This document shows positions 10,426-28,897 of a stretch of 64,000 bases of DNA, one piece after another. Position 1 is the first letter of the stretch; each line of letters opens with the position of its first letter. This DNA comes from Caldimonas thermodepolymerans. GTDB lineage: Bacteria > Pseudomonadota > Gammaproteobacteria > Burkholderiales > Burkholderiaceae_C. The notes under the pieces were generated by a model. That model was not told the origin of the DNA. It saw only the letters and a program-made list of their open reading frames with translations, and searched no databases. Position numbers and translations under genes: made by a program. The stretch covers positions 1 to 64,000 of the forward strand of contig NZ_CP064338.1 in assembly GCF_015476235.1 (NCBI RefSeq), in the 5' to 3' direction.

Positions 10426-11298
10426 TCACGCGAGCGGGGTGCCGGTCGCGCGCTCGAGCGCGGCGAGCAGCTGGTCCTGGAAGCGCACGTCGTGGACGGC
10501 GGGGTGCGGTTCCTCGCGCTGCAGGTGGTACCAGTAGCCGCCGCTGGTCAGCGCCTCGGGATCGTCGCTGACGGCAAGCCACTCCTGCGTCGCATGGCCC
10601 TGGCGCAGGTCGTCCGGCGCGGCGGGGCCGCCCATGCGGGTGGGCACCCAGCCCGGGTTCACGGCGTTGCTGCAGACGTCCGGCCACCGGCGCGCGACCG
10701 CCGCGGCCAGGGTGGTGACGTAGAGCTTGCTGTCGGCATAGCTGCCGGTGGCGCGCCGGCCGGTCCAGTCCATGCCGGCAAGGTCGGTGCTGCCGCTGCG
10801 GTGCAGGGCGCTGCTGAGGTAGATCAGCCGCTGCGGGCGCCGGACCAGCGCGGTCAGCAGGTACGGCGCGACGGTGTTGACCACCAGCACCTGCGGCCCG
10901 GACAGCACGCCGGCGTTGTGGATCACGGCATCCATGCGACCGAGCTCGTTGACCTGCCGGGCCAGGTCGCGCGCCTGCCGCAGGTCGGACAGGTCGCCGA
11001 CGGTGACGGCCGCGCCGCGCTCCAGCAGCGGCTGCACCGCCGACATCCGTTCCCGGGAGCGCACGTGCACGACGACCTCGTGTCCCTGGGACAACAGCGT
11101 CTCGGCGGCGAGGTATCCCAGCCCGGTCGACGAGCCGGTGATGAACACCCGCTTGCGGGCCGGGCGTTCCGGGCGTGGATTGGTGGCTCCCATCGGCGTG
11201 CTCCGGGAAGCGGGCGACTGCGCGCGGGCGGCGCCGGCCGGCCACAGCGATCCGGCGCCCAGCGTCGCGCTCGCGAAAAGGAAGCTCCGGCGGTCCAT
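10426..11298 (-). CDS. SDR-family oxidoreductase with a Tat signal peptide
   Basis: A 290-residue short-chain dehydrogenase. The start at 11298 is chosen because GAGGAGG sits 8 bases before it, whereas two upstream ATGs in frame overlap or crowd this site. It then begins MDRRSFLFASATLGAG, a twin-arginine signal motif (RRSFLF) with an A-x-A cleavage region near AARAQS. The Rossmann motif TGSSTGLG follows, then HNAG, a catalytic serine in YLSSALH and YADSK (Tyr-x3-Lys). Export of a folded NAD(P)-binding SDR to the periplasm is unusual. It is probably cotranscribed with the MFS carrier. Confidence 0.8.
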   Translation of the reverse strand: MDRRSFLFASATLGAGSLWPAGAARAQSPASRSTPMGATNPRPERPARKRVFITGSSTGLGYLAAETLLSQGHEVVVHVRSRERMSAVQPLLERGAAVTVGDLSDLRQARDLARQVNELGRMDAVIHNAGVLSGPQVLVVNTVAPYLLTALVRRPQRLIYLSSALHRSGSTDLAGMDWTGRRATGSYADSKLYVTTLAAAVARRWPDVCSNAVNPGWVPTRMGGPAAPDDLRQGHATQEWLAVSDDPEALTSGGYWYHLQREEPHPAVHDVRFQDQLLAALERATGTPLA

Positions 11299-11441
11299 GC
11301 GCATGACCTCCTCTCGCATGTTCGCCGCCGGCCCGGGGGCGGGCCGTTGCGGTCCTGGTCAGAGCCTGCCGGTGCCGGGCAAGTTCCGGCGCGAGCCCGG
11401 GCGGGCCATGGCCGCAGGCCGAAGGCGGGCCTGCGAAGGAT

Positions 11442-11562
11442 ATACAGAGGCCGGGATCCTGTATGCATCATTTTGGAAGTCGGCCGCCCCTGGCCGCACC
11501 AAAGGTATGCGCGCATGACCCAACGCCGAGCGCCAGGCGGCCCGGATGTATGGCACACATCC
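11442..11562. promoter_or_regulatory. Inverted repeats upstream of the aminotransferase operon
   Basis: The 297-bp spacer between the divergent SDR and aminotransferase genes has two operator-like inverted repeats: ATACAG...CTGTAT (11442-11464, 11-bp spacer) and GGATGT...ACATCC (11544-11562, 7-bp spacer). The second lies 34 bp before the aminotransferase ATG, where a repressor would overlap the promoter or leader. Which regulator binds is unknown; the GntR at 14970-15686 is the nearest candidate. Confidence 0.35.
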
Positions 11563-11595
11563 TGCGTGGATGGGCCGGCAACCCGACCCACCACC

Positions 11596-12726
11596 ATGCG
11601 CCCCTTCGAACAACGTAACCGGTACTTCGACCAGCTCTGCAACACGCCCGGCCTGATGTGGCTGGGGCAGAACACCAACCACTTCGATCCGCACCCGAGC
11701 GTGATCCAGGCGGTGCAGGACGCGCTCGCCGACGGCAGCTACCACGCCTACGCGCCGCCGTGCGGCTTCGAGGAGCTGCGCGAGCTGGTCCTGCAGGACG
11801 TCGGGTTGCCCGATGCCTGCTGCTTCGTCACCGACGGCGGCGTGGAAGGCCTCTACAACGTCTGCAGCAACCTCTGCCGGCCGGGCCAGGACTTCGTGAC
11901 CACCGACCCGAGCTGGGCCTGGCCGATCCACTTCGCGCGCAAGGCGGGGGCCCGCATCGTCGAGCTGCCGATCTTCGACGAGAGGCAGGGCTACAAGCTC
12001 GCCGCCGAGCAGCTGCGCGCGGCCGTGGGCCCGGACACCGGCGTGATCTACCTGGTGGACCCGAACAACCCGCTGGGCACCTGCCACACGGCCGAGGAGA
12101 TCCAGGCGTTCACCGACATCGCGCGTTCGGTCGGCGCCTACTTCATCCACGATGCGACCTACTCGCAGTTCGCCGACGGCTTCACGCCCGCCTACCGCTA
12201 CTACCCCGAGAAGAGCATCGTGATGTACAGCTTCTCGAAGTGGGCCGGGCTCGCCGGCCTGCGCCTGGGCGCGGCGATCGCCTGCACCGACATCATCGAG
12301 AGGCTGGCCACCGCGCCGCCCAACAACCTGGGCTGCAACGTGCTGTCGCAGCGCGCGGCGATCGCGGCCCTGAAGAGCAAGGCCGAGTGGTTCCCGCAGG
12401 TCAAGGCGCGCCTGCGCCGCAACCAGGCGGCCGTGCACGAGGCGGTGCAGCAGGTGCCGGGCTTGCGCGTGCTGGTCTATCCCTCGCATGCCAACCTGCT
12501 GGTGATCGACACCTCCGAAGCGGGCGTGACGCCCGAGGCGCTGGTGGCGGCCTACGGCGAGGCCGGGATCATGATCCGCCAGGGCACCTACCACACGAAG
12601 CGCTTCGGCGACCGCTTCATCAAGGTCAGCCTGTCGGTGCCCGAGGCATGGGCCGACCGCTTCTGCGCGCTGCTGCCCGGGATGGTCGAGCAAGCCCGCC
12701 ACACCACCGCCCCCGCCCTGTTCTGA
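11596..12726 (+). CDS. Class I/II PLP-dependent aminotransferase
   Basis: A 376-residue fold-type I aminotransferase of the histidinol-phosphate or aspartate aminotransferase type, expected to move an amino group between an amino acid and a 2-oxo acid. The PLP lysine is in SFSKWAGLAGLRLG, and the cofactor-binding DPNNPLGT and the HDATYSQF segment (Asp to the pyridine N) are clear. The ATG at 11596 gives MRPFEQRNRYFDQ; the frame is open further upstream but without family similarity. It is the first gene of a tight cluster, 13 bp ahead of an alpha/beta hydrolase. The substrate is unknown; a product 2-oxo acid could feed the decarboxylase at 20721-21881. Confidence 0.85.
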   Translation: MRPFEQRNRYFDQLCNTPGLMWLGQNTNHFDPHPSVIQAVQDALADGSYHAYAPPCGFEELRELVLQDVGLPDACCFVTDGGVEGLYNVCSNLCRPGQDFVTTDPSWAWPIHFARKAGARIVELPIFDERQGYKLAAEQLRAAVGPDTGVIYLVDPNNPLGTCHTAEEIQAFTDIARSVGAYFIHDATYSQFADGFTPAYRYYPEKSIVMYSFSKWAGLAGLRLGAAIACTDIIERLATAPPNNLGCNVLSQRAAIAALKSKAEWFPQVKARLRRNQAAVHEAVQQVPGLRVLVYPSHANLLVIDTSEAGVTPEALVAAYGEAGIMIRQGTYHTKRFGDRFIKVSLSVPEAWADRFCALLPGMVEQARHTTAPALF

Positions 12727-12739
12727 AGGAGAGCCTGCG

Positions 12740-13621
12740 ATGCCTTACATCACCGCGCGCGACGGCGTGCGCCTGTACTACGAAGAGGCAGGCAGCGGCA
12801 CGCCGATCGTCTTCGTGCACGAGTTCGGCGGCGACAGCCGCAGCTGGGAACCGCAGATGCGTTACTTCACGCGGCGCTACCGCTGCATCACCTATGCGGC
12901 ACGCGGCTACCTGCCCTCGGACGTGCCGGAGGACGTGGAGCGCTACTCGCAGCAGATCGCGGTCGACGACATCGCCGACGTGATGGATGGCCTGGGCATC
13001 GACTCGGCCCACGTCGTCGGCCTGTCGATGGGCGGCTTCGCGACGCTGCACTTCGGCCTGCGCTACGCGGCGCGGGCGCGCTCGCTGGTGGTGGCCGGCG
13101 CGGGCTACGGTGCCGAGAAGCAGTACGAGGAGTACTTCCGCAACGTCTCGCTGGAAGTGGCGCGCAAGTTCGAGGAGCTGGGCGCGCCGGAATTTTCGAA
13201 GACCTACGCGCAGGCCGCCTCGCGCATCATCTTCCAGGTCAAGGACCCGCGCGGCTGGCAGGAGTTTGCCGACATGCTGGCCGAGCATTCCTCGATCGGC
13301 TCGGCGCGCACGATGCAGGGCGTGCAGGCACGCCGCCCGTCGATCTACGACCTCGAGGCCGAGCTGCGCCGGATGCAGGTGCCCACGTTGGTGATCGTCG
13401 GTGACGAGGACGACCACTGCCTGCAGCCCGGCATCTTCCTGAAGAAGACCGTGCCTGCCAGCGGCCTGCTGGTGCTGCCCAAGGCCGGGCACACGATCAA
13501 CCTCGAGGAGCCGGCGCTGTTCAACCAGTTCGTCGGGGACTTCCTCGCCACCGTCGAGCAGGGCAAGTGGCTGCCGCGCGACCCGCGCAGCCAGCCGGCC
13601 GAGATCATGAAGACCTCATGA
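12740..13621 (+). CDS. Alpha/beta-fold hydrolase
   Basis: A 293-residue serine hydrolase of the alpha/beta type. It shows the oxyanion-hole segment VFVHEFGGDSRSW (25-37), the nucleophile elbow GLSMGG (Ser96), an acid in VIVGDEDDHC and the catalytic His in PKAGHTINLEEP. Such enzymes cleave esters, amides or C-C bonds of small acids. It begins after AAGGAGAG with good spacing and overlaps the next gene by 4 bp (ATGA), so the two are translationally coupled. A role in ring or amide opening in the pathway is an inference from context. Confidence 0.85.
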   Translation: MPYITARDGVRLYYEEAGSGTPIVFVHEFGGDSRSWEPQMRYFTRRYRCITYAARGYLPSDVPEDVERYSQQIAVDDIADVMDGLGIDSAHVVGLSMGGFATLHFGLRYAARARSLVVAGAGYGAEKQYEEYFRNVSLEVARKFEELGAPEFSKTYAQAASRIIFQVKDPRGWQEFADMLAEHSSIGSARTMQGVQARRPSIYDLEAELRRMQVPTLVIVGDEDDHCLQPGIFLKKTVPASGLLVLPKAGHTINLEEPALFNQFVGDFLATVEQGKWLPRDPRSQPAEIMKTS

Positions 13622-14853
13622 GGGCCGCCGACAACGTCAGCGAGCAGCGCCTGAACCAGCGCCTGGCCGCGCTGGCCCGCCTGGGGGCCACGCCCGCCGG
13701 CGGGGTGAACCGCCCGGCGCTGTCGCTGGCCGATGCGCAGGCCCAGGAGCTGATGGCGCGCTGGGGCCAGGACATCGGCCTCGAGCCGAGCCGGGATGCG
13801 GCGGGCAACTTCTTCCTGCGCCTGCCGGGCGGCCCCGAGGGCGCCGCGCCGGTGCTGAGCGGCTCGCACCTGGACAGCCAGCCCACCGGCGGGCGCTACG
13901 ACGGCGTCTATGGCGTGGTGGCCGCGCTGGAGGCTGCACAGGCGCTGCTGGAGGCCGGCGTGCCGCGCCGGCGGCCGCTGGACGTGGTGGCGTGGATGAA
14001 CGAGGAAGGCTCGCGCTTTGCGCCCGGCATGATGGGCTCGTCGGTGTTCGCCGGCGCGCGCACGCTGGACGAGATCGGCGCGGTGTGCGACAGCCAGGGC
14101 CTCAGCGTGGCCGAGGCGCTGCGTGCCACCGCGCTGCGCCTGGCCCACATCCCCGGGCGTCCGCTGGGCGGCGCGGTGCATGCCTACGTGGAGGCCCACA
14201 TCGAGCAAGGCCCGGTGCTGGACCGCGCGGGCGTTCCCGTCGGCATCGTGACCGGGATCCAGGGCAAGCACACCTTCCGCGTCGAGGTCGACGGCGAGGC
14301 GGCCCACGCCGGCACCTCCTGCCGCGCCGAGCGCCGCGACGCGCTGCTCGCGGCGCTGGCGATGGTGCGTGCGCTGACCGAGGTGATGCACGACGCCGAG
14401 GACATCGTGAAGTTCACCGTGGGCCGCTTCGAGGTGATGCCCAATGCGCCTTCGGTGGTGCCGGCGCGGGTGGTGTTCTCGATCGACCTGCGCCACCCGG
14501 ACACCGGGACGCTGCGGCGCCTGAGTGCCCAGGTCCAGCCGCTGTGCGAGGCCCATGCGGGGCCGTGCACGGTGCAGGTCACGCGCCTGTCGGCGGCGGA
14601 CTCGCTGGTGTTCCCGCCCGAGATGCAGCAGCGCGTGAAGCAGGCCGCCGAGGCGCTGGGCATCCCGGCCATCGCGCTGCCTTCGGCCGCCGGGCACGAT
14701 GCGCGCTACCTGCACGGGATCGCGCCCTCGGCGATGGTGTTCGTGCCCAGCCGCGACGGCATCACGCACAACGAGGCGGAGTACACCGACTCCGCCGACC
14801 TGGCCGCGGGTGCCCGCGTGCTGACCGAGGTGCTGCAGGGGCTGCTGGCCTGA
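13618..14853 (+). CDS. M20-type amidase, hydantoinase/carbamoylase family
   Basis: A 411-residue zinc hydrolase of the family holding N-carbamoyl-L-amino acid hydrolase, beta-ureidopropionase and allantoate amidohydrolase. Metal ligands are visible in GSHLDSQ (His84), GGRYDG (Asp95) and NEEGSRF (Glu129/130). The dimerisation/lid domain contains GIQGKHTFRVEVDGEAAHAG, and the C-terminal AGHDA and THNEAEYT are typical. The ATG at 13618 overlaps the hydrolase stop. Enzymes of this family release CO2 and ammonia from N-carbamoyl groups. This points to a nitrogen-rich, ureido- or amide-bearing substrate. Confidence 0.85.
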   Translation: MRAADNVSEQRLNQRLAALARLGATPAGGVNRPALSLADAQAQELMARWGQDIGLEPSRDAAGNFFLRLPGGPEGAAPVLSGSHLDSQPTGGRYDGVYGVVAALEAAQALLEAGVPRRRPLDVVAWMNEEGSRFAPGMMGSSVFAGARTLDEIGAVCDSQGLSVAEALRATALRLAHIPGRPLGGAVHAYVEAHIEQGPVLDRAGVPVGIVTGIQGKHTFRVEVDGEAAHAGTSCRAERRDALLAALAMVRALTEVMHDAEDIVKFTVGRFEVMPNAPSVVPARVVFSIDLRHPDTGTLRRLSAQVQPLCEAHAGPCTVQVTRLSAADSLVFPPEMQQRVKQAAEALGIPAIALPSAAGHDARYLHGIAPSAMVFVPSRDGITHNEAEYTDSADLAAGARVLTEVLQGLLA

Positions 14854-14927
14854 GCGCGGGCCGCGCCCGCCGCCCCCCGGCCTTTCCGGTTGACTCTCCG
14901 TCCCCGACACCCCGGTGTCGGTTCCCC

Positions 14928-14964
14928 GGCCCATGGCGCTGTGCGCGTCGTGGGCCGTCTTTTT
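14928..14964 (+). terminator. Intrinsic terminator after the carbamoylase gene
   Basis: GGCCCATG (14928-14935) pairs with CGTGGGCC (14949-14956, one G-T pair). GTCTTTTT follows at once, ending in a run of five T. A second small hairpin, CCGACACC/GGTGTCGG, lies just upstream at 14904-14921. Together they end the 11596-14853 transcript ahead of the opposing GntR gene. Confidence 0.7.
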
Positions 14965-14969
14965 GCCGC

Positions 14970-15686
14970 TCAGCCCGGCAGCTGGCTGGAGACCGCCGAG
15001 ATCAGGTCGACCATGTCGTCCTGCAGCAGCGTGACGTGGTTGGCCGCGGCGGAGAACGCGGCTTCCGGGTCGTGCCGCTCGATGGCGTCGAGGATGGCCT
15101 GATGCTCGCCGATGGTCGAACGCATGCGGCCCGGGTGGTAGGTGACGTGGCGGCGGTAGAAGGCCACGCGCTTGCGCAGCAGCCGCGTCTGTGCGGCGAG
15201 GTAGTGGGTGTTGGACGCGTCGTACAGCGCGTCGTGGAAGTGCTGGTTGACTTCGTAGAACAGGTCGCGGTTGTCGCTGTCGACCAGCCCCCTGAGCTGT
15301 TCCTGCAGCTCCTGCAGGCGACGGCGCTGCGCGGGCGTGGCGCGCCGTGCTGCATAGCGTGCGCACAGGCCTTCGAGCACCGACATCATCTGGAACATCT
15401 CCAGGATCACGGGCATCGACAGGCTGGTGACGTACACGCCGTTGGTGCCCTTCATCTCGACCAGGCCGGTGCCGGCCAGCGCGCGCAGCGCCTCGCGCAC
15501 CGGCGTGCGCGAGACCTTGTAGCGCTCGACCAGCTCGGCCTCGTCCAGCCGCGTGCCCGGGCGCAGCGTGCCGTTGAGGATCTGTTCTTCGAGGTTCTCG
15601 CGCAGCTCCTCGCTCAGCGTGGGGGCGCGCTCGCGCGTGCGCTCCCGGCCGGGCGGGACGTCGCGGGTGGCAAGGGTCTGCTCCAT
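14970..15686 (-). CDS. GntR-family regulator, FCD (FadR) subfamily
   Basis: A 238-residue transcription factor with an N-terminal winged HTH (EEQILNGTLRPGTRLDEAEL, then SRTPVREALRALAGTGLV) and an all-helical FCD ligand-binding domain. Its conserved metal/ligand residues include the N-x3-H of FYEVNQHFHDALYDAS and a late His (ANHVTLL). Members usually repress operons for organic-acid or amino-acid catabolism and release DNA on binding a small ligand. It is divergent from the SDR-ABC-enzyme operon, across a 335-bp region with strong palindromes, and is the likely local regulator. Confidence 0.9.
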   Translation of the reverse strand: MEQTLATRDVPPGRERTRERAPTLSEELRENLEEQILNGTLRPGTRLDEAELVERYKVSRTPVREALRALAGTGLVEMKGTNGVYVTSLSMPVILEMFQMMSVLEGLCARYAARRATPAQRRRLQELQEQLRGLVDSDNRDLFYEVNQHFHDALYDASNTHYLAAQTRLLRKRVAFYRRHVTYHPGRMRSTIGEHQAILDAIERHDPEAAFSAAANHVTLLQDDMVDLISAVSSQLPG

Positions 15687-16021
15687 GCAGTCTCCGATGG
15701 GTCTTGGGTTCCGTGAGGAAGGCGGTGGCCTCGCGCGGCCGCCGTGGTGGAGCCGTCCTCAGCAGTATTCGCGCCACCTTGCAGGCAGGCCTGCACGGGC
15801 CGCGGCGAGCTATCTCGGTGCGGGTGCACCTGCACCGTGAATCCAGAACGGGCATTTCCGTATGCACGTGCATCGATATGAGGCGCGTTGCACGGGGACT
15901 CGCGCATCCGCAAGCAGCGAAGGCTGTGTTCCGGCTGGCACGGTTAGTGCGTAAGGGAAGCCCATCGCGAGGGCCGCCCGAGGGCGCCCCGCCTTCCCTG
16001 AACCCCAGACCACGCACCGAC
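15687..16021. promoter_or_regulatory. Divergent control region with two palindromes
   Basis: This 335-bp spacer between the GntR gene and the divergent operon has no gene. At 15816-15837 there is a 22-bp inverted repeat centred on GGTGCACC and perfect except for one pair. At 15862-15873 there is a perfect 12-bp palindrome ATGCACGTGCAT. The centres are 41 bp apart, about four helical turns, which would suit cooperative binding of a GntR dimer pair. Assignment to the neighbouring GntR protein is inferred. Confidence 0.5.
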
Positions 16022-16879
16022 ATGACCTCTCTGACGCTGACCGGCAAGACCGCTCTCATCACTGGCGCCTCCAAGGGCATCGGACTGGCGACCGCCTGGA
16101 CCTTTGCCGAAGCCGGGGCCCGGCACCTGCACCTGGCCGCGCGCGACGGCGCCGCGCTGGAGGCCGCAAAGCGGGAAATCGAGGCCCGGCACCCGGGCAC
16201 GCAGGTCAGCACGCACGCGCTGGACCTGTCGGCGCCCGGCGCGATGAAGGCGCTGGCCGACGCGGCCGGCGACGTGGACATCCTGATCAACAACGCGGGC
16301 GACATGCCCTCCGGCCCGCTGGAATCGCTCGACTGGGACCTGCTGCGCCGCGCGCTGTCGCTGAAGCTGGTCGGCTACATGGAGCTCAGCTGCTACGTCT
16401 ACGAAGGCATGAAGCGCCGCGGCAGCGGCGTAATCATCAACGACATCGGCAACTCCGGCGAGAACTACGACGCCAACTACATCGCGGGCTCGGCGTGCAA
16501 CGCCGGCGTGATGGCCTTCACCCGCGCGCTGGGCGGCGTGAGCCTGGACCACGGCGTGCGCGTGGTCGGCGTGAACCCCGGCCCGGTCGCCACCGACCGC
16601 ATGGTCAAGATCATGAGGCGCCGCGCGATCGACAACTTCGGCGACGAAAGCCGCTGGCAGGAACTGTTCGACGCCTACCCCGGCGGCCGTCCGGCCGAGG
16701 CGCGAGAGATCGCCGAGCTGATGCTGTTCCTCGCCTCCGACCACGCGCAGTACATCACCGGCACGGTGGTGACGATCGACGGCGGCATCGCCGCGCGCGG
16801 CTCGGTCATCAAGACCAGCAACTACGCCGCCAACCGCGCGGCGCGCCTGGCTGCCCAGGCCTCCGCCCAGGCGGCCTGA
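16022..16879 (+). CDS. SDR-family protein lacking the canonical Tyr-x3-Lys
   Basis: A 285-residue Rossmann-fold short-chain dehydrogenase relative with TGASKGIG (14-21), a DILINNAG segment and the C-terminal ITGTVVTIDGG of classical SDRs. In place of S...Y-x3-K it reads NSGENYDANYIAGSACNAG. The residue four after the Tyr is Ser, so the catalytic Lys is absent, and the Ser-to-Tyr spacing is shorter than usual. It may use another lysine or a different chemistry. The ATG at 16022 is chosen by similarity. It heads the operon that continues with the ABC importer. Confidence 0.8.
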   Translation: MTSLTLTGKTALITGASKGIGLATAWTFAEAGARHLHLAARDGAALEAAKREIEARHPGTQVSTHALDLSAPGAMKALADAAGDVDILINNAGDMPSGPLESLDWDLLRRALSLKLVGYMELSCYVYEGMKRRGSGVIINDIGNSGENYDANYIAGSACNAGVMAFTRALGGVSLDHGVRVVGVNPGPVATDRMVKIMRRRAIDNFGDESRWQELFDAYPGGRPAEAREIAELMLFLASDHAQYITGTVVTIDGGIAARGSVIKTSNYAANRAARLAAQASAQAA

Positions 16880-16902
16880 GTCCGACGCAGCAGGACTTCG
16901 CC

Positions 16903-17730
16903 ATGGCCACGCCCCTTCCATTGCCTGCCACGCCCGCCGCCCGGCCCGCGGAGGGCGGGGCCTCCCGACCGCCGCGCCGGCGCCTGCCGCCCGAGGTGCT
17001 GATGAGCACGCTGTCGGTGCTGTCCATCGTCGCCCTGTGGTACCTCGCGACGCTCGCGCTGCCGCCCTCGGTGCTGCCGCCGCCGCACACGGTGGTGAAG
17101 TCGATGGCCGAGCTCGCCGGCACGGACGAGTTGTGGAGCGACATCCGCATCTCGCTGACGCGCATCGCGTTCGCCTTTGCGCTGGGCATGGGCATCTCGC
17201 TGCTGCTCGGCTTCGCGATGGCGACCTCCGAGCGCGCCGGCATGTTCTTCCGCGTCTGGGTGGTGTGCGGCATCACGGTGCCGGCCATCGTGACCATCCT
17301 GACGATCTACATGGTCATGGGCATGAACGACCGCGCCGCGGTCGTCGGCGCGGCGCTCACCGTGGTGCCCTTCCTCGCGATCAACATCCGCGAGGGCATC
17401 AAGAGCATCGACATGCGCCTGATCCACATGGGGCGCATCTTCCGCGCCAGCCGGCGCCAGCTGATCGGCTCGGTGATGCTGCCGCAGGTCGCGCCGATGC
17501 TGCTGGCCTCGGCCCGCTTCGGCCTGGGCCTGGTCTGGAAGATGGTGCTGTTCGTCGAGCTGCTGGGCCGCAGCGACGGCGTGGGCTACCGCATCGAGCA
17601 CTACTTCCAGATGTTCGACATGACGCAGGTGCTGGCCTACGCGCTGAGCTTCCTGATCGTGATGATGTTCATCGAGGTGTTCGTCTTCGGGCTCATCGAG
17701 AAGCACATCTTCCGCTGGCGCCATGGCTGA
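16903..17730 (+). CDS. ABC transporter permease, NitT/TauT (SsuC/TauC) type
   Basis: A 275-residue inner-membrane permease with about six helices and the EAA-type loop (DMRLIHMGRIFRASRRQLIGSVMLPQVAP) that contacts the ATPase. This family imports nitrate, taurine, sulfonates, pyrimidine precursors or similar small anions. It begins 23 bp after the SDR stop and overlaps the ATPase start by 8 bp (17723-17730). The substrate cannot be read from the permease alone. Confidence 0.88.
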   Translation: MATPLPLPATPAARPAEGGASRPPRRRLPPEVLMSTLSVLSIVALWYLATLALPPSVLPPPHTVVKSMAELAGTDELWSDIRISLTRIAFAFALGMGISLLLGFAMATSERAGMFFRVWVVCGITVPAIVTILTIYMVMGMNDRAAVVGAALTVVPFLAINIREGIKSIDMRLIHMGRIFRASRRQLIGSVMLPQVAPMLLASARFGLGLVWKMVLFVELLGRSDGVGYRIEHYFQMFDMTQVLAYALSFLIVMMFIEVFVFGLIEKHIFRWRHG

Positions 17731-18553
17731 CGCGGCCGTGTCGACTTCCTCCCGCAACGCTTCCACAGGACGCCCCATGTCGCAGATCGCCCTCGTCAAC
17801 GTCGGCAAGACCTACCGCGCGGCCCGTCGCGAGCCGCTGCACGTGCTGCGCGGCATCGACCTGTCCATCGAGGCCGGCGAGGTGGTCGGCCTGGTGGGCC
17901 CGTCGGGCTGCGGCAAGTCGACCATCCTGAACATCGTCGCCGGCCTGGATGCGGACTACACCGGCCGCGTGACGATCCAGGGCCGCCCGATGTCCGAGCA
18001 GCTGGATGCGGGCTTCCGCGTCTCCTACGTGTTCCAGGAATCGCGCCTGCTGCCCTGGTACACGATCGCGCAGAACATCGAGTTCGCGCTGCGTGCGGCG
18101 AACTTCCCGCGCAGCGAGTGGAAGGAACGCACCCTCGCGGTGCTGGACCTGGTGGGCCTGTCCCGCTTCAAGGACTTCTACCCGGGACAGCTCTCGGGCG
18201 GCATGCAGCAGCGGGCCTCGATCGCGCGCGCCTTCTCGGTGGACCCGGACATCCTGCTGATGGACGAACCCTTCAGCGCGCTGGACGAGCTCACCGCGCG
18301 CAAGCTGCGCCAGAGCCTGCTCGACATCTGGGAGAAGTTCCGCTCGACCATCCTGTTCGTCAGCCACAACGCCTACGAGTCCACCTTCCTCGCGGACCGG
18401 ATCATCGTGATGAGCAGCAACCCCGGCGGAAAGATCGCCGAGGAGATCGACCTTCGGGACGTGCCCCGTCCGCGCTCCTACGACGACCCGGCCCTGTTCG
18501 AGAAGAGCAAGGAGGTCATCCGCGTGCTCGACCGCCGCCCGGTCGAGGCCTGA
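17723..18553 (+). CDS. ABC transporter ATP-binding protein, NitT/TauT type
   Basis: A 276-residue ATPase. Walker A GPSGCGKST (59-67), Q-loop FQESRLLPW, signature LSGGMQQRASIARA, Walker B ILLMDEPFSALD and the switch His in LFVSHNAYES are all present. Start 17723 overlaps the permease. An internal ATG at 17777 (MSQIALVNVGKTY) would give the standard N-terminus and is a possible true start. It powers the importer formed with the permease at 16903-17730 and the binding protein at 18631-19638. Confidence 0.9.
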   Translation: MADAAVSTSSRNASTGRPMSQIALVNVGKTYRAARREPLHVLRGIDLSIEAGEVVGLVGPSGCGKSTILNIVAGLDADYTGRVTIQGRPMSEQLDAGFRVSYVFQESRLLPWYTIAQNIEFALRAANFPRSEWKERTLAVLDLVGLSRFKDFYPGQLSGGMQQRASIARAFSVDPDILLMDEPFSALDELTARKLRQSLLDIWEKFRSTILFVSHNAYESTFLADRIIVMSSNPGGKIAEEIDLRDVPRPRSYDDPALFEKSKEVIRVLDRRPVEA

Positions 18554-18630
18554 ACCCACGAGAGGCACGCACCGCCACCCCGCCCCACCGTTTCCTGACC
18601 GTCCCCGCCCCTGCACTGGAGCAACGCCCC

Positions 18631-19638
18631 ATGAAGCCCACCACCAACCTCAAAGCCCTGCTCGGCGGCGTCGCTGCCGCGCTGACCCTGCACTTCGCAC
18701 CCCTGGCCCAGGCCCAGACCGCCGCGCCCAAGGGCGACGGCGGCACCATCCGCATGCTGATCAACCCGGCGGGCACGATGTCGATCCCGCCGCTGGTGAT
18801 CAAGCAGTACAACCTCGACAGGAAGTACAACATCAACGTCGAGACCGTCCCGTACAGCAACAACAACTCGGCCGCGGTCGCGCTGCAGAGCAAGAGCACC
18901 GACGTCGTGATCCTCGACTGGCTGGCCACCGCGCGCCTGAAGGCCGGCGGCATCAACGTGGTCGGCGTCGCGCCCTTCCTCACCTACGTCAACAGCATCA
19001 TCGTGCCGGTCGACTCGCCGGCCAGGACGATCGCCGACCTGAAGGGCATGAAGGTCGGCGCGCACAACAAGACCGGCTTCGACTGGGTCATCACCGTGGC
19101 GGCCGCGAAGAAGAAGTACGGCATCGACCTGAACAAGCAGGTCACGCTGCACGAAGGCGCGGTGCCGCTGTTGCGCGGCCTGATGGAACAGGGCGAGCTG
19201 CAGGCCACCGGCATGTGGAACTCGCTGGCGCCCGAGATGCTGGCCACCGGCAAGTTCCGCACGCTGGCCACCATCCGCGAGATCTCCGACAGCATGGGCC
19301 TGCCCACCGTGCCGTTCCTGTTCTTCGGCATGCGCGAGGAGTACGCCAAAGCCAACCCGGCCAACGTGCGCGCCTTCGTCGCCGCCTACCAGGACGCCGT
19401 CAGGATCATGAAGACCGACGACAAGCTGTGGGAGGACACCGGCAAGCGCATGAAGCTGTCGCCGCAGGCCACCGAGTTCTTCAAGCAGCAGGTGCGCAAC
19501 GACCTGCTGACCGCCTTCACGCCCGAGATGGCCCAGGGCCTGTCCGACACGCTCGACGCGATGGTCGAGGTCGCCGGTCCCGAGGTCATCGGCATGAGCA
19601 AGCTGCCCGAAGGCCTGATCACCCTCGAATACCAGTAA
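18631..19638 (+). CDS. ABC transporter substrate-binding protein, NitT/TauT (NMT1-like)
   Basis: A 335-residue periplasmic binding protein with a Sec signal peptide (positive start, hydrophobic core, LAQAQT cleavage region). Segments such as SKSTDVVILDWLATARLKAGG, IADLKGMKVGAHNKTG and a two-lobe layout fit the SsuA/TauA/ThiY superfamily. It captures the operon substrate for the permease and ATPase. It lies 77 bp after the ATPase and 75 bp before the oxygenase gene. The ligand is unknown. Confidence 0.88.
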   Translation: MKPTTNLKALLGGVAAALTLHFAPLAQAQTAAPKGDGGTIRMLINPAGTMSIPPLVIKQYNLDRKYNINVETVPYSNNNSAAVALQSKSTDVVILDWLATARLKAGGINVVGVAPFLTYVNSIIVPVDSPARTIADLKGMKVGAHNKTGFDWVITVAAAKKKYGIDLNKQVTLHEGAVPLLRGLMEQGELQATGMWNSLAPEMLATGKFRTLATIREISDSMGLPTVPFLFFGMREEYAKANPANVRAFVAAYQDAVRIMKTDDKLWEDTGKRMKLSPQATEFFKQQVRNDLLTAFTPEMAQGLSDTLDAMVEVAGPEVIGMSKLPEGLITLEYQ

Positions 19639-19713
19639 GCCCTGACGGTCGATTCGTCACCGCGACGCCGCGCGGGTCCGCGCGGTGTCCCCCGTTCCCT
19701 GTGGAGATGCATC

Positions 19714-20709
19714 GTGAACAGCCCCTTTGAAGCCCGGACCATATCGACCGCCAGCCTGCCGATGATCGACATCAGCGGCCTGTCGTCGTCGAAGCACGAG
19801 GACCGCAAGGCGGTCGGCGCGCAGATCCGCGCCGCCTGCATCGAGTACGGCTTCTTCTACGTGTCCGGCCACGGCGTGCCGCAAGGCCTGATGGATGCGG
19901 CCCTGGAACAGACCCGCGCCTTCTTCGCGCAGCCCGACGAGCAAAAGGCCAAGGTGGCGCGCACCAAGTCGTTCTGCAACCGCGGCTGGGACCCGCTGAA
20001 GGCCGAGTCGCTGGGCCTGGACGTGCCGGACAACAAGGAAACCCTGTTCCTGGGCCTGGACCTGCCGCTGGACCACCCGGCGGTCGTCGCGCGCCGCTTC
20101 AACCACGGCCCGAACCAGTGGCCCGAGGGCCTGCCCGGCTTCAAGACCACGATGCGCGCCTACCACGCCGCCCTGCGCGACGTGAGCGAACGCATGATGG
20201 TCGGCCTCGCGCTGGCGCTGGACCTGCCCGAGGACTACTTCGAGGACTTCAACGACACCCCGCTGTCGACGATGCGCCTGCTGCACTACCCGCCGCAGCC
20301 GGTCAACGCCGGCAGGGAGCAGGTCGGCGCCGGCGCGCACACCGACTTCGGCGCGCTCACCTTCCTGCTGCAGGACGAGAACGGCGGCCTGCAGGTGCAG
20401 GGCCTGGACGGCGAGTGGATCAGCGCCCCGCCGATCCCCGGCACCTATGTCTTCAACATCGGCGACGCGATCGCGCGCTGGACCAACGACCTGTTCCGCT
20501 CGACGCTGCACCGCGTGATCAACGTCTCGGGCAAGGAGCGCTACTCGGTGCCGTTCTTCTACTCCGGCAACCCCGACCACGTGCTCGAGTGCCTGCCCGG
20601 CTGCCTGAAGGCCGGCGAGTCGCCCAGGTACCCGGCCGTGACCGTCGAGAAGCACATGCAGGAGTGCTACCGCCGCGCCCGCGAGGCCGCCTCCAGCTAC
20701 GTCGGTTGA
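19714..20709 (+). CDS. 2OG-Fe(II) oxygenase, isopenicillin-N-synthase-like
   Basis: A 331-residue non-haem iron oxygenase. The DIOX_N domain carries the EYGFFYVSGHGV motif. The jelly-roll core has the iron triad His209-x-Asp211 (GAHTDFGALTF) and His266 (STLHRVIN), with Arg276-x-Ser278 to bind 2-oxoglutarate. GTG at 19714 is taken as start because GGAGA lies six bases upstream. It probably hydroxylates or oxidatively cleaves the imported compound. Two further genes of this family occur in the window (50896-51903 and 54528-55550). Confidence 0.85.
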   Translation: MNSPFEARTISTASLPMIDISGLSSSKHEDRKAVGAQIRAACIEYGFFYVSGHGVPQGLMDAALEQTRAFFAQPDEQKAKVARTKSFCNRGWDPLKAESLGLDVPDNKETLFLGLDLPLDHPAVVARRFNHGPNQWPEGLPGFKTTMRAYHAALRDVSERMMVGLALALDLPEDYFEDFNDTPLSTMRLLHYPPQPVNAGREQVGAGAHTDFGALTFLLQDENGGLQVQGLDGEWISAPPIPGTYVFNIGDAIARWTNDLFRSTLHRVINVSGKERYSVPFFYSGNPDHVLECLPGCLKAGESPRYPAVTVEKHMQECYRRAREAASSYVG

Positions 20710-20720
20710 GGACGCGCGAG

Positions 20721-21881
20721 ATGCCGACGCTGCTCAAGCGCTTCGACTTCCTGGCCGCGCTGGCCGGTGTGGCGCGCGACGACCTGGTCGTCACCAACCT
20801 GGCCAACACCGCCACCGAGTGGCATGCGGCCCGGCCCTCGCACGCCAACCTGTATGCGGTGGGCATGGGCCTGGTCACGTCCTATGCGCTGGGCGTGGCG
20901 CTGGCGCGGCCCGAGCAGTCGGTCATCGCGCTCGACGGCGACGGCGGCATCTTCTTCGACACCTCCATCCTGGGCACGATCGCCGCCGCGGGCGCGGCCA
21001 ACCTCACGGTGGTGGTGTTCGACAACGGCGGCTACGTCTCCACCGGCCGGCTGCCCGACGTGGCCTCGCTGGCCGCGCGCGTGGACATCGCGACGCTGGC
21101 GCGTGCCTACGGCCTCGCGCACGTGCACACGGTCGAGCAGCCCGAGGCGCTGGTGGCCTGCGTGCGCGAGGCACGCGAGACGGCCGCGCCGACGCTGGTC
21201 GTCGTGAAGGTCAATGCCGAGCAGGCGTTCGTCGGCCCGTTGCCGATGGACCTGAAGGAAAACAAGTACCAGTTCGTGCGCCACGTCGAGCAGGCTGCGG
21301 GCATCCGCATCCTCAAGCCCTCGGCCAAGGAACACGGCGCACGCCCGGCCGCCGACCCGGCCAGCCACGCCGACGCCCAGGCGGGCTTCGCGCACACGCT
21401 CCATGCCGCCCTGAAGGACAACGGCATCGACTTCGTGATCGGCCTGCCCTGCTCGGGCTTCAGCGGCGCGCAGTCGCTGCTGATGCAGGACCGCGAGATC
21501 CGCTACCTGCCGGTCGCCCACGAAGGCACCGGCGTGGGCATCTGCGCCGGCGCGTGGCTCGGCGGCAAGCGCCCGGCCGCGCTGATCGAGAACTTCGGCC
21601 TGTTCGCCTCGGTGTACCACCTGCTGCGCGGCCACTTCAGCCACGGCATCCCGACATTGCTGATGACGGAATACCGCGGCGACACCGGCGACCAGGAGTT
21701 CTTCGCCGAGACCGGCGAGGTCACGCCCGACCTGCTCAGGGCCATGCGCGTGAACCACCGCGTCATCGCCGATGCCGCGCAGCTGATGCCCGCGGTGCGC
21801 GACGCCTGGCGCTGGATGGACGCCTGCCTGCGTCCCTTCGCGATCCTGCCCACCTTCGAGCTCACGCGCCTGAAGCGCTGA
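20721..21881 (+). CDS. Fused thiamine-diphosphate decarboxylase (ComE-ComD order)
   Basis: A 386-residue protein joining the two halves found as separate subunits in sulfopyruvate decarboxylase. The N-terminal half (about 20-170) is the ThDP-binding domain, with GDG at 73-75 and the Asn-containing end of the motif at VVFDN (98-102). The C-terminal half (about 222-386) is the pyrimidine-binding domain, with the activating glutamate in [12 protein letters not shown] (Glu268). Usual decarboxylases have the opposite order. It should decarboxylate a 2-oxo acid to an aldehyde, a fitting donor for the aldehyde dehydrogenase at 23386-24843. It begins 11 bp after the oxygenase. Confidence 0.85.
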
Positions 21882-21901
21882 GCCGCCCTGCCGGAACACC
21901 C

Positions 21902-23338
21902 ATGCGCACGCTGCTTTCCCACATCGGCCGGCTCTACACCTGCGACCGCCACGACCGCGTGCTTGCCGATGCGTACGTGGTGGTCGAAGGCGAGCGCATC
22001 GTCGAGGTCGGCCAGGGCCGGCCCGAGGGCCACTTCGACCAGCGCATCGACCTGCGCGGCCAGGTCGTCATCCCCGGCCTCGTCAACCTGCACCATCACT
22101 TCTTCCAGACGCTCACCCGCGCGATCCCGCGTGCGTTGTCGGGCCACCTGATCGACTGGCTGCGCGCGATGTACCCGCTGTGGGCCGGCTTCACGCCCGA
22201 GGACCTGAACGCCGCGACGCAGGCGACGATGGCCGAGCTGATGCTCACCGGCGCCACCATCAGCGTCGACCACGCCTACCTGATGCCCGGCGGCCGCGCG
22301 GCATACACCGACGCGATCGTCGAGGGTGCATGCACGGCCGGCATGCGCCTGCACCTGGTGCGGGGCTGCATGACGGTGATGGAGGACCGCCTCGAACAGG
22401 AACTTACCCCGCTGATCGGACCGCGCGCCGGCGGCCTGGTGGACGACGAGGACGAGGTGCTGGCCGACATGGCGCGCGCGATCGACACCTACCACGACAC
22501 CGGCTGGGGCGCGCGCGTGACGATCGCGCTCGGCCCCACCACCGCCACCTACCCGCGCCTGGACTTCATGCGCCGCATCGCCGGGCTGGCGAACGAGCAT
22601 GGTTGCGGCCTGCACATGCACTTCCACCCGCGCCCCGACGAGCGCGCCTGGTGCCGCGAGCAGTACGGCAAGCGCCCGATCGAGCTGCTGGACGAAGCCG
22701 GTTGGCTGCGCCCGGGCACCTGGTTCGCGCACAGCACGCGCGTCGACGCCGACGACATGCGCCAGATGGCCGAGGCCGGCGTCGCGGTCGCGCATTGCCC
22801 GCGCATGATCGTGCGCCTGGGCGCGCGCGTCACGCCCGTGCACGAGATGCTCGCCGCCGGCGTGCGCGTGGGCTTCGGCGTCGATGGCGGCGCCAGCAAC
22901 GACAGCAGCTCCATGCTCGGCGAGCTGCGCCTGGCGTTGCTGCTGCACCGCGTGGCCGGCGGCGAAGGCACGGTGCCCTGGCAGCAGTGGCTCTCGCCCT
23001 ACCGGGCGCTGACGATGGCCACGCGCGATGCGGCCGCCGTCCTCGGCCGCAGCGACATCGGCCGCATCGAGCTCGGCTGCTGCGCCGACATCGCCGCCTT
23101 CGACATGTCGCCGGTCGCCTTCGCCGGCGCCCGCACCGACTGGCTCTCGGGCCTGCTGGTCGCCGGCGACGACAGCCGGGCGTCGCTGACCATGATCGGC
23201 GGCGCGATCCGCGTGCTGCACGGCCGCCTGGTCTGGGACGACGAGCAGCAGCTGCGCGCGCGCGTCGACGCCGCCACCCAGCGCCTGATCGAGCGCGCCC
23301 AGCGCCTCACCGGCCTGGACTACCTGCAGATGGCCTGA
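21902..23338 (+). CDS. Amidohydrolase of the 8-oxoguanine deaminase / AtzB-TrzN group
   Basis: A 478-residue metal-dependent hydrolase. The TIM-barrel shows the first metal motif LHHHFFQT (His64, His66), a strand motif LHMHFHPR, and [13 protein letters not shown] with the metal-binding Asp. N- and C-terminal strands form the small beta domain. The [11 protein letters not shown] signature is typical of 8-oxoguanine deaminase and hydroxyatrazine ethylaminohydrolase relatives, which remove amino groups from N-heterocycles. It follows the decarboxylase by 20 bp. Its presence suggests a heterocyclic or guanidino-type nitrogen in the pathway substrate. Confidence 0.85.
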
Positions 23339-23385
23339 GCGCGGCGCGCACCGGCCCACCTTCATCCGCTGAACGGACCGATTCC

Positions 23386-24843
23386 ATGAGCACGACCTCC
23401 CCCCTGCACGGCGTCGACCTGCTGATCGACAACGAGTGGCGCCCGGCCCTGTCGGGCCGTCGCCTCGACGTGCCCAACCCGGCCACCGGCGAGGCCTTCG
23501 TCACCGTGGCCCACGCCGGCATCGAGGACCTCGACATCGCGCTGGCCGCTGCGCAGCGCGGCTTTGCCACCTGGCGCGCGATGTCGCCGTACGACCGCAG
23601 CGCGATCATGCGCCGGGCGGCCGCGATCCTGCGCGAGCGCACCCCCGGGATCGCCAGCCTGCTGACGCAGGAACAGGGCAAGCCGGTCGCCGAATCGGTG
23701 GTCGAGCTGCGCGCCGCCGCCGACATCATCGAGTGGTTCGCCGAGGAAGGCCGCCGCACCTACGGGCGCCTGATCCCGGGCCGGTCGCCGCAGGTCACGC
23801 AGAAGGTCATCAAGGAGCCGGTCGGCCCGGTGGCCGCCTTCACGCCCTGGAACTTCCCGGTCAACCAGGCCGTGCGCAAGATCTCGGCCGCGCTGGCTGC
23901 CGGCTGCTCCATCCTGCTCAAGGGCCCCGAGGAAACGCCGGCCTCCTGTGCCGAGTTGGTGCGCGCGTACGTCGATGCCGGCCTGCCGCCGGGCGTGGTC
24001 GGCCTGGTCTACGGCACGCCGGCCGAGATCTCGGGCTACCTGATCCCGCACCCGGTGATCCGCAAGATCTCCTTCACCGGCTCCACCGCGGTGGGCAAGC
24101 AGCTCGCGGCGCTGGCCGGCAGCGCGATGAAGCGCGTGACGATGGAGCTCGGTGGCCACGCACCGGCGATCATCTTTGCCGATGCCGACCTCGACGCCGC
24201 GGCCGGGCAGCTCGTCCTGATGAAGTTCCGCAACGCGGGCCAGACCTGCATCGCCGCGACCCGCTTCCTCGTGCACGAGTCGGTGCACGACGCCTTCCTC
24301 GAGCGCTTCCTCGCCAAGGTCGCGCAGATCAAGGTCGGCAACGGCCTCGACGAAGGCGTGACGATGGGCCCGCTGGCCAACGTGCGGCGCGTGCAGGCGA
24401 TGGAGGTGCTGATCGGAGACGCCCTGGCCAAGGGCGCGCAGCTCGCCTGCGGCGGGCACCGCATCGGCAGCGCCGGCAACTTCTTCGCGCCGACCGTGCT
24501 GACCGGCGTGACCCCCGACATGCGCGCGATGAACGAGGAACCCTTCGGCCCGCTCGCACTGGTGCGCCGCTTCAGCTGCTTCGAGGAGGTCGAACAGGAG
24601 ATCAACCGCCTGCCGTACGGCCTGGCCACCTACGCCTACACGCGCGACGCCGCGACGATCGCGAGCCTGACCCACGTCGTCGAAAGCGGCATGCTGTCGA
24701 TCAACCACCTGGGCCTGGCGCTGCCCGAGACCCCGTTCGGCGGCGTCAAGGACTCGGGCTACGGCTCCGAAGGCGGGCTGGAAGCGGTCGAGACCTACCT
24801 CGTCACCAAGTTCGTGTCGGAGTACCAGCCGCCGTCGGGATGA
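23386..24843 (+). CDS. NAD(P)-dependent aldehyde dehydrogenase (succinate-semialdehyde type)
   Basis: A 485-residue ALDH. The [10 protein letters not shown] segment, the glutamate motif MELGGHAP and the catalytic cysteine in [11 protein letters not shown] are all intact, and FTGSTAVGK shapes the cofactor site. It is closest by motif to GabD-like semialdehyde dehydrogenases. It ends the operon 16022-24843 and probably oxidises the aldehyde released by the ThDP decarboxylase at 20721-21881. It converges with the Mrr-like gene at a 17-bp gap. Confidence 0.9.
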
Positions 24844-24860: not shown

Positions 24861-25868
24861 CTACGACGCCTGGCGTTCCACCAGCGCGGCGATGGTGCCG
24901 TTGAGCGGCAGCGTCGTGCGGCACGCCGGATACCGCGTGCAGCCCCAGAAGGGCTTGCCCCCCTGGCGCGGGCGGCGCAGCACCAGCTTGATCCCGCAGT
25001 TCACGCAGGTCGGGCGCCAGTACTCGCCCTGCAGCGCGACGTCGAGCAGGGCCTGCTGCTGCTCGGCCGAGCGCGAGCGGATCAGCTTCAGCAGCGCGTC
25101 GACGTCCAGCAGGTTGATGCCGTTTTCCTTCGCGAACGCGACGGCCTCGTCGGTGAAGCGCGAGGTGGTCGCGAACTGGCCGCGTACCACGCCGTGGGCT
25201 GCCATCACGCCGCGCAGCTCGCGCACCTTGTCGACGCCCACGCGCTTGCCGTGCCAGTGCTTGCACTGCACGATGGTCACCGGCTTGTCGGGCTGGTAGC
25301 GCGTGTAGACCCAGAGGTCGACGCCGCCGTCGGCACCGTGCGACTGGCTGCGCGTGCGAAACCCTGCCTGCGTGAAGAGCGCCTCGACCACGGCCTCGAA
25401 GCGGCGCCATTCGATCAGGTCGAACACCTCGGCGCTCCAAGCCGTCGGCCGGGGGGGCTCGGCGGGCGTGGCGACGGCCTCGGCCTCCTGGGCGGTCGCC
25501 TCATGCCCGGCAGGACGCGATGCGGCAGGCGTGCGCGAGGCCGTGGACGCCGGCGCATCGTTCGATGCGGTGGCGCTGCGGGCGCGTTCGCGGGCCTGCC
25601 ACCACAGCAGCAGCGCGCCCGCGATGGCCATCAGCCAGCCCAGCGGCGCGACGGCCTTGAACATCGATGCGACATGCCCGCCGCGGGCAAACAGCGGCAC
25701 CAGTGCGATGGCGCCGCCGACGACCAGCAATTGCAGCGCGGCCCCTTCCCTGCGCCGGCTGCGGCGCCCGTTGCGGGCGTGCCTTGGTTTCACGGACTCC
25801 TCCCTTTCCTGGTCCCTGGCTGGACCAGCGGGATTTGTAACCAAACGCAATGGCGGTTGCATCCCCAC
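24861..25868 (-). CDS. Membrane-anchored Mrr-like nuclease with topoisomerase-type zinc ribbon
   Basis: A 335-residue protein. Two hydrophobic helices (about 45-60 and 75-91) are followed by an Ala/Pro-rich linker. A restriction-endonuclease-type (Mrr_cat) PD-(D/E)XK domain comes next, with GADGGVDL (Asp184) and VQCKHW (Gln201, Lys203). A C-terminal four-cysteine zinc ribbon (CVNCGIKL...GCTRYPAC) is like that of topoisomerase I. Proteins of this layout are widespread and their role, defence or DNA quality control at the membrane, is unsettled. The N-terminus is uncertain; a GTG at 25793 (VKPRHARNG) is an alternative start. Confidence 0.8.
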   Translation of the reverse strand: MGMQPPLRLVTNPAGPARDQEREESVKPRHARNGRRSRRREGAALQLLVVGGAIALVPLFARGGHVASMFKAVAPLGWLMAIAGALLLWWQARERARSATASNDAPASTASRTPAASRPAGHEATAQEAEAVATPAEPPRPTAWSAEVFDLIEWRRFEAVVEALFTQAGFRTRSQSHGADGGVDLWVYTRYQPDKPVTIVQCKHWHGKRVGVDKVRELRGVMAAHGVVRGQFATTSRFTDEAVAFAKENGINLLDVDALLKLIRSRSAEQQQALLDVALQGEYWRPTCVNCGIKLVLRRPRQGGKPFWGCTRYPACRTTLPLNGTIAALVERQAS

Positions 25869-26095
25869 TCAGGGGGAACCCCGCGGTTACATGTGACGTA
25901 TTGCGCAGATCGGCGCTGGCCGGCCTGGATCGCCCGCGTGGCAGCGGGCTGCCGGTGCAGCGAGGCCCCGCGCCACGGACGCACACGACGACCGGCCCGC
26001 GCCGGCCGCGGGGGATTGCCGCGGCCTGCCCCGGTCCGGACAATCCGTCGGCCGCCGGGCCGGCGCCCGGCCTTCGTCGGACGCCTTCCTGACCC

Positions 26096-26744: not shown

Positions 26745-26971
26745 GCGGATCCTGCCGACGCCTTGCGCAGCTTTCAGGCAAGGCTTGAGGCGCATCCCCC
26801 GCGACGGCGGGCATGACGTCGAGATCGGACAAGGGGGGCCACCGACTGTGCGCTATGCGTCACGATTCGTGGCCCGCTTGGGGGGAGGAGCGTTGACGGC
26901 GCCAGGCGCTGCCCTGGACGATTGCAGTCGTACCATCATCGCAGCAATCGGTCTCCCTTGCAGTACGCATC

Positions 26972-28786: not shown

Positions 28787-28855
28787 GTGCGCCACCTCCT
28801 GCTACGGGTCGCGGATCCGTTCTGCGGCGGTGTGCCCTGAAGGTGACGTGCGGCA

Positions 28856-28882: not shown

Positions 28883-28897
28883 CGCATGGGGTCAGGC

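Follow-up and report, generated by a model that had tools for sequence, protein, structure and literature searches.

A twelve-gene island near the replication origin of Caldimonas thermodepolymerans: a possible regulon for N-heterocycle catabolism built from two separable modules

What do the twelve genes between positions 11596 and 24843 of the first 64,000 nucleotides of the Caldimonas thermodepolymerans contig NZ_CP064338.1 (the window) do together, and on what substrate? A preliminary description, made from the letters alone, had read them as a catabolic island for a nitrogen-rich acid with one pathway logic running through all the genes. Frame analysis and family scans bear out its gene list (given below): all the named genes are open, with the order, strands and families claimed. 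Our reading, to which we give a probability of about 0.42, is that the island is one inducible regulon for the uptake, oxidation and hydrolysis of an N-heterocycle, built from two modules (M1 and M2) that occur separately elsewhere. The substrate is probably a cyclic ureide or a modified pyrimidine-like base with an acidic side chain; a purine is possible and sulfonates are unlikely. This reading is based on gene content, module structure, regulator group, an operator-like word and, except for the amidohydrolase, catalytic motifs. The catabolic island for a nitrogen-rich substrate is supported in the form of an N-heterocyclic, ureido-forming and probably co-regulated system.

11461..11467, + strand: GTATGCA operator-like word, 5' of the aminotransferase operon
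11596..12726, + strand: class I/II aminotransferase, PRK06225-type, module M1 (Aminotran_1_2; NF004870 456 bits, cut-off 351; Lys in SFSKW)
12740..13621, + strand: alpha/beta hydrolase, module M1 (nearest NCBIfam models PcaD and others, all below cut-off)
13618..14853, + strand: M20 hydantoinase/carbamoylase-family amidase, module M1 (TIGR01879 373.2 bits, cut-off 204; motifs present)
14927..14957, + strand: terminator-like hairpin, then T-run (count at shuffle level)
14970..15686, - strand: GntR-family regulator with FCD domain (family scans; tree)
15860..15866, + strand: GTATGCA operator-like word in the intergenic region between GntR and SDR genes (overlaps a perfect palindrome, 15862-15873)
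16022..16879, + strand: short-chain dehydrogenase/reductase (SDR), PRK06125-type (M1 member by linkage in other genomes)
16903..17730, + strand: ATP-binding cassette (ABC) permease, NitT/TauT-type, module M2
17723..18553, + strand: ABC ATPase, module M2
18631..19638, + strand: NMT1/THI5-type periplasmic binding protein, module M2
19714..20709, + strand: Fe(II)/2-oxoglutarate (2OG) oxygenase, module M2 (DIOX_N and 2OG-FeII_Oxy domains; HxD...H and RxS present)
20721..21881, + strand: fused thiamine diphosphate (ThDP)-dependent decarboxylase-like enzyme, module M2 (PP half before PYR half)
21902..23338, + strand: amidohydrolase, divergent relative of 8-oxoguanine deaminase and TrzN (without the HxxE Glu; PF01979 152 bits)
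23386..24843, + strand: aldehyde dehydrogenase (ALDH; nearest model succinate-semialdehyde dehydrogenase, below its cut-off)

Module M1 comprises the SDR, the aminotransferase, the alpha/beta hydrolase and the M20 carbamoylase, usually together with an FCD-type GntR regulator. The aminotransferase served to pick 23 neighbourhoods; all 23 contain the four enzymes, and 20 a GntR homologue. These neighbourhoods come from 18 genomes and from five of the nine plasmid records with an aminotransferase match (L083, L084, L093-L097, L102-L117); an unannotated locus picked by the hydrolase alone and without a full M1 (L098) was excluded. The four genes form one co-directional run in L083 and L084, with identities to the window (SDR, aminotransferase, hydrolase, carbamoylase) of 59, 76, 82 and 64% and of 63, 62, 73 and 54%, respectively. 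In L113 the SDR gene stands about 6 kb off, adjoining the GntR gene, and the hydrolase and carbamoylase matches of L096 are fragmented. Among 120 genomes (the own genome and 119 relatives) the aminotransferase was matched in three at 1e-60 and the hydrolase in 11 at 1e-40, the own genome included in both counts; the other two genomes with the aminotransferase are those of L083 and L084. Further aminotransferase matches appeared in 15 of 347 genomes from the order of the Tardiphaga metagenome-assembled genome (MAG) described below, in three of 300 of the own order (own genome included) and on nine of 72,556 plasmids, the hydrolase lying at most 1 kb away in all nine.

The genes beside M1 include an NtaA/DmoA-type luciferase-like monooxygenase in nine of the 23 loci, a class II aldolase in ten, a flavin reductase in three and RidA in one, and a GMC oxidoreductase in L114. 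L084 joins M1 with a PuuE-allantoinase-like protein (311 bits, below the cut-off of 425) and L083, alone among the 23, with an SsuD-type alkanesulfonate monooxygenase that scores above its cut-off. The M1 operon of L095 holds a gene nearest to uridine phosphorylase (217 bits, below the cut-off of 280), deoC and deoA being present at this locus too, and L096 and L115 have a RihC/UriH-like nucleoside hydrolase of the pyrimidine/uridine type (165 bits, below the cut-off of 382). By their similarities, these nucleoside genes are a hint at pyrimidine nucleosides. The NtaA-type monooxygenase has no close counterpart in the own genome, where its best match reaches 33%. No homologue of the 2OG oxygenase or of the ThDP enzyme was found at 1e-12 in any of the 23 neighbourhoods; an annotated ThDP pair lies at the edge of that of L097.

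Module M2 is composed of a GntR regulator, the NitT/TauT-type importer, the 2OG oxygenase and the fused ThDP decarboxylase, and was found in two alphaproteobacterial MAGs. A contig-wide genome scan for the ThDP enzyme confirmed three of 98 stretches, two of them full-length, in the Tardiphaga and Pseudolabrys MAGs (L031, L032); a partial match at 32% (L033) was left out of locus mapping. Identities to the window in L031 and L032 are 44-46% for GntR, 56-57% for the permease, 63-64% for the ATPase, 56-58% for the binding protein, 61-66% for the 2OG enzyme and 65-67% for the ThDP enzyme. For the remaining six genes of the island, no homologue at 1e-5 lies within 21 kb in either locus, and the L031 genome lacks an aminotransferase match at 1e-100. 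Instead, both have a cytosine-deaminase-type amidohydrolase, a GMC oxidoreductase and an Amidohydro_2 protein whose best match in the PDB is gamma-resorcylate decarboxylase.

Among the loci mapped, both modules are together in the window only, so that the gene-neighbourhood check that had been proposed for the same set in other genomes returned two separate modules. The idea that the aminotransferase feeds the ThDP decarboxylase and the ALDH finds no support here: 0 of 23 M1 loci hold a ThDP or 2OG homologue at 1e-12, and M1 is absent within 21 kb of both M2 loci. Scattered occurrence had itself been named as an argument against one pathway, and since the two gene sets are scattered in just this way a single linear pathway is not supported.

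The argument for co-regulation comes from the common regulator group and the operator-like word. In a 27-row tree, whose rows were chosen by similarity to the window GntR and reduced to their final 240 residues if the open frame was longer than 260, the 24 GntR rows that stem from M1 loci, from M2 loci and from the window cluster together (99/97), to the exclusion of three other GntR-like window proteins. The regulators of M2 (L031, L032) are nested among those of M1, joined with L116 (98/96), and the GntR of the island clusters with L113, L095 (two rows), L096 and L115 (99/96). Two long rows (L106, L114) may be falsely joined. The three window proteins outside the group of the island GntR, with 26-31% identity to it, are encoded at 46322-47032, 52812-53552 and 53562-54389.

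The word GTATGCA was first spotted among the words common to both window promoters. It is the most widespread 7-mer in the promoter segments (13 of 26 loci), and 22 of its 46 sites fall inside these segments, which make up 10,777 of 554,752 bp (0.89 expected); for the sister word GTATACA the figure is 13 of 20 sites (0.39 expected). Since the loci are related, these counts are to be read as enrichment and not as independent trials. The 64-kb window has four copies of GTATGCA, no more than its shuffles (mean 2.49), but two of the four fall in the window promoter gaps, which measure 276 and 335 bp (611 bp together). The candidate operator sequence at the 11461 and 15860 sites is TGTATGCA. By enrichment and co-occurrence, TGTATRCA-type sites 5' of both island operons are candidate binding sites of the regulator. 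The SDR of M1 is the first gene of the M2-like operon in the window and, taking the nested regulators, the common word and the placement of the SDR together, M1 and M2 look like one regulon type. The one-pathway logic proposed earlier is partly supported: these signs of co-regulation speak for it, the separation of the modules in other genomes against it. As for the terminator placed after the carbamoylase gene (whose start overlaps the alpha/beta hydrolase gene by 4 bp), the hairpin at 14927-14957 does exist, but one such site is not above the shuffle expectation (mean 1.4).

A way to approach the chemistry is to look at the two most unusual enzymes. The ThDP decarboxylase is present, but must be read as a single fused gene, with the PP (beta) half first and the PYR (alpha) half second. 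The PP half aligns to positions 170-359 of the 360-position TIGR03297 (phosphonopyruvate decarboxylase) profile, i.e., to its end, yet it comes first, and the halves are therefore reversed with respect to the profile; the PYR half matches the ComD-alpha profile. Although both halves are recognisable as those of ComDE and phosphonopyruvate decarboxylase, the fused enzyme in its PP-PYR order stays below the cut-offs of sulfopyruvate decarboxylase ComDE (TIGR03846, 120.6 against 221.5 bits; TIGR03845, 83.5 against 147.95 bits) and of TIGR03297 (158 against 312.5 bits). The decarboxylase motifs are in place (GDG at 73, DNGG at 101, HEG at 267), the cofactor motif and the PYR-domain Glu are invariant in all three aligned rows, and benzoylformate decarboxylase is among the PDB matches. 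At 0.001, 67 of the 120 genomes match the enzyme, full-length only in the own genome; the best other match has 34% identity over residues 9-171. At 1e-30 it was found in one of 369 genomes drawn from the class, which is the own genome, and the seven hits among 397 genomes from the order of the Tardiphaga MAG are that MAG and six PP-half matches at about 1e-36. On plasmids, 100 of 72,556 records match, 17 of them over at least 80% of the query and none at 60% identity, and the viral contigs scanned contain no relative of the fused enzyme. Structure models built on alignments of three rows were of too low a quality to be used (mean pLDDT of 53.0 for the ThDP enzyme and 32.5 for the binding protein).

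Distant split ThDP pairs (36-38% identity) adjoin GMC oxidoreductases in a repeated alphaproteobacterial cluster (L034, L089-L092). The gene order there is LysR, ThDP alpha, ThDP beta, GMC, amidohydrolase, Rieske, molybdopterin hydroxylase and ALDH, and the Rhizobium version (L034) has a guanine deaminase and a BMP-type importer nearby. This cluster may encode a further undescribed route, for purines or methylpurines.

The amidohydrolase is nearest to 8-oxoguanine deaminase and shares with the group of that enzyme, AtzB and TrzN the HxH and the later His and Asp positions of the (COG0402-like) superfamily. It differs in its NF006055 score (421.4 bits, below the cut-off of 532), in a Pro that replaces the HxxE Glu and in the spelling CPRMIVRL where the group has CP(C/S)SNMRL. 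The same replacement is seen in its M1-linked orthologue in L106 (55% identity, 475 residues), which stands beside M1, a second amidohydrolase and an ALDH; HFHPRPDE and CPRMIxRLGA occur in both proteins. The ordinary relatives have HLAEN and CP(C/S)SNMRLASG in ten of ten aligned (of 14 fetched), as does a Methylobacterium plasmid protein (L045). Matches at 1e-70 are found in 24 of the 119 relatives (37-44% identity). Among plasmids, 697 records match, all below 60%, with 41-42% the best among the matches listed. We take the HxxE Glu to be the one that acts in the mechanism of the deaminases and TrzN. Since it is replaced, the window enzyme is probably not a standard deaminase, which counts against the deamination step proposed earlier. 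Plain 8-oxoguanine deaminase is ruled out by the NF006055 cut-off and the absent Glu. In guanine and cytosine deaminases a Glu is reported to protonate the ring nitrogen and the leaving amine (PMC12828455), and Glu241 of TrzN is given the same role (PMC4356373). Enzymes of the amidohydrolase group act on modified bases, N2,N2-dimethylguanine and isocytosine being examples (PMC13054789, PMC6186785). The two added Arg suggest that the substrate of the window enzyme is anionic. In L106, positions 10609-13784 hold two divergent amidohydrolase genes adjoining M1, with a TGCATACA site in their common intergenic region.

The remaining families are less unusual. Catalytic motifs were found in the 2OG enzyme, the ThDP enzyme, the carbamoylase, the aminotransferase and the alpha/beta hydrolase, and in the 2OG enzyme both domains as well. 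The carbamoylase passes the cut-off of the hydantoinase/carbamoylase amidase subfamily, fails the AllC allantoate deiminase equivalog (TIGR03176, 233.1 against 597.75 bits) and stays just under a subfamily named for allantoate amidohydrolase (NF006771, 385.9 against 399 bits). The binding protein fails both SsuA (TIGR01728, 63.3 against 163.5 bits) and TauA (TIGR01729, 24.3 against 304.25 bits). Its plasmid relatives (177 records, about 31% being the best among the matches listed) gave no substrate clue in the three records opened, two of which adjoin pyrroloquinoline quinone (PQQ) alcohol dehydrogenase genes and one plasmid replication genes. The 2OG enzyme has a homologue in 331 plasmid records, two of which were opened. 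These, a Pseudomonas (L041) and an Acinetobacter plasmid (L042), carry urate-type clusters with two or three window-related 2OG oxygenases of no assigned function.

With these parts we infer the following working scheme. The FCD-GntR protein would sense the substrate or an early intermediate and control the two operons, and the M2 importer would take up a small N-heterocycle. Its side chain might be shortened in mandelate fashion: hydroxylation by the 2OG enzyme, oxidation of the alcohol (by the SDR in the window, in the alphaproteobacteria by the GMC oxidoreductase), decarboxylation of the 2-oxo acid by the ThDP enzyme and oxidation of the aldehyde by the ALDH. The amidohydrolase would then open or trim the ring by a way other than classical Glu-assisted deamination. 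M1 would receive the resulting ureido acid, from which the carbamoylase would free CO2 and NH3, while hydrolase, aminotransferase and SDR may convert the amino acid or enamine to a central metabolite, along lines parallel to those of the Rut pathway.

Both parallels are partial. The mandelate-type side-chain pathway has the same hydroxy acid oxidation, ThDP decarboxylation and aldehyde oxidation, but the ThDP enzyme of the island is of ComDE size, two-domain and with reversed halves, follows a 2OG oxygenase and is linked to amidohydrolases. The Rut pyrimidine pathway (RutA-G) resembles M1 and its partners elsewhere in having a luciferase-like monooxygenase, a flavin reductase, a ureide hydrolase, an alpha/beta hydrolase, an SDR and RidA. 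It differs in that the M1-linked monooxygenases are of the NtaA/DmoA type, and that the island has an M20 carbamoylase where RutB would stand, an added aminotransferase and an ABC importer. None of the twelve genes of the island encodes a RutA-type luciferase-like monooxygenase; elsewhere in the own genome, the NtaA-type protein was the only probe used. A bolder version of our reading, which we regard as rather improbable, would make M1 an undescribed Rut-like ureide funnel with interchangeable front ends (NtaA-type monooxygenase, PuuE-like hydrolase, Glu-less amidohydrolase). The front end of the window would be new, with the 2OG enzyme and the reversed-half ThDP enzyme oxidatively stripping the acidic side chain of a modified nucleobase and a new amidohydrolase subfamily opening the ring.

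Several points weigh against the two-module regulon. Only the window joins both modules, and conservation therefore does not show one pathway. The loci were chosen for their similarity to window proteins, and those that are related do not count as independent. Neither GTATGCA nor GTATACA occurs in the promoter segments of ten of the 26 loci, L106 among them; of the 23 M1 loci, too, ten are without either spelling. Placing the SDR both in side-chain oxidation and in M1 requires a guess, and the nucleoside genes accompany M1 in just three of 23 loci (two lineages), all with scores below cut-offs. For the nearest 2OG relatives, both of the plasmid clusters opened are of the purine/urate kind, and in L084 the neighbour of M1 is the PuuE-like protein. 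These last two points lead to a purine or allantoin-like route, which we hold to be rather unlikely. On such a route a purine would be oxidised by the 2OG enzyme, the oxidised purine or its ring-opened product would be handled by the amidohydrolase, and an allantoate-like ureide by the carbamoylase. The plasmid 2OG homologues concerned (53% and 48%; two of 331 records) adjoin HpxO and NCS2 symporters, with Rieske oxygenases or allantoicase, in urate or methylpurine-like clusters. The split ThDP relatives cluster with guanine deaminase, Rieske oxygenases and molybdopterin hydroxylase, and both the kinship of the amidohydrolase with 8-oxoguanine deaminase and the near miss of the carbamoylase (386 of 399 bits) point the same way. 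However, the amidohydrolase is under its cut-off and devoid of the catalytic Glu, the carbamoylase is far from AllC (233 of 598 bits), and no homologue of HpxO, allantoicase or ureidoglycolate lyase was present in the 23 M1 loci, the urate and allantoin genes of the own genome not having been searched.

The single linear pathway, running from deamination through ureide hydrolysis, transamination to a 2-oxo acid and ThDP decarboxylation to ALDH oxidation of one substrate, can claim that every enzyme is present, that the genes are contiguous and that the common word favours their co-expression. It is nevertheless improbable: none of the 23 M1 loci and neither of the two M2 loci mapped has the aminotransferase together with the fused ThDP enzyme, so that each does without the other there, and the amidohydrolase lacks the deaminase Glu. 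We find it similarly improbable that chance made neighbours of two unrelated modules by inserting both into a variable stretch close to the origin. The modules are separate elsewhere, replication genes open the window, defence-like genes follow the island, and the 119 relatives have no full-length ThDP orthologue, all of which fits such an event; the SDR of M1 at the head of the M2-like operon, and the regulator group and word common to both modules, do not. A sulfonate or phosphonate pathway via a ComDE- or phosphonopyruvate-decarboxylase-like enzyme, the first of which the preliminary description had allowed for, is very unlikely. The importer type, the ComDE-like halves, a split ThDP relative annotated comE in Leisingera and the SsuD-type monooxygenase of L083 would agree with it. 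The ComDE, TIGR03297, SsuA and TauA cut-offs are all missed, no desulfonating or C-P cleaving family was found among the island genes scanned, and SsuD, a point in favour of a sulfonated substrate, occurs in only one of 23 M1 loci. Indole acetate, the thiamine pyrimidine (HMP), s-triazines and plant heterocyclic amino acids are at most conceivable substrates.

The enzyme families are known and their combination is probably undescribed. The preliminary description knew of no pathway with this gene set, and we likewise found no paper on it in the open PMC literature, which is weak evidence of novelty. If our reading is true, N-heterocycles or modified nucleobases would gain a further catabolic route, and its genes could be mislabelled, so near do they come to 8-oxoguanine deaminase, sulfopyruvate decarboxylase and sulfonate transporters. 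The island also offers a regulon open to testing, with a single GntR, a single operator-like word and two operons, as well as two unusual enzymes: the amidohydrolase, which lacks the standard proton donor, and the ThDP enzyme, whose halves are reversed.

As to the surroundings, dnaA, dnaN and gyrB (28-5515) stand at the start of the window, so that some 6 kb separate the island from gyrB and it belongs to the origin region of a genome of 3.86 Mb in a single contig. The right flank (24861-32413) is defence-like, with an Mrr-type nuclease, a NERD and UvrD helicase (PADLOC C3a187, 546 bits) and a Schlafen-group-3 helicase matching PADLOC PDC-S41 (955 bits). A Na/H exchanger gene lies between these defence-like genes, and a mutator-family transposase is encoded at 41089-42423.

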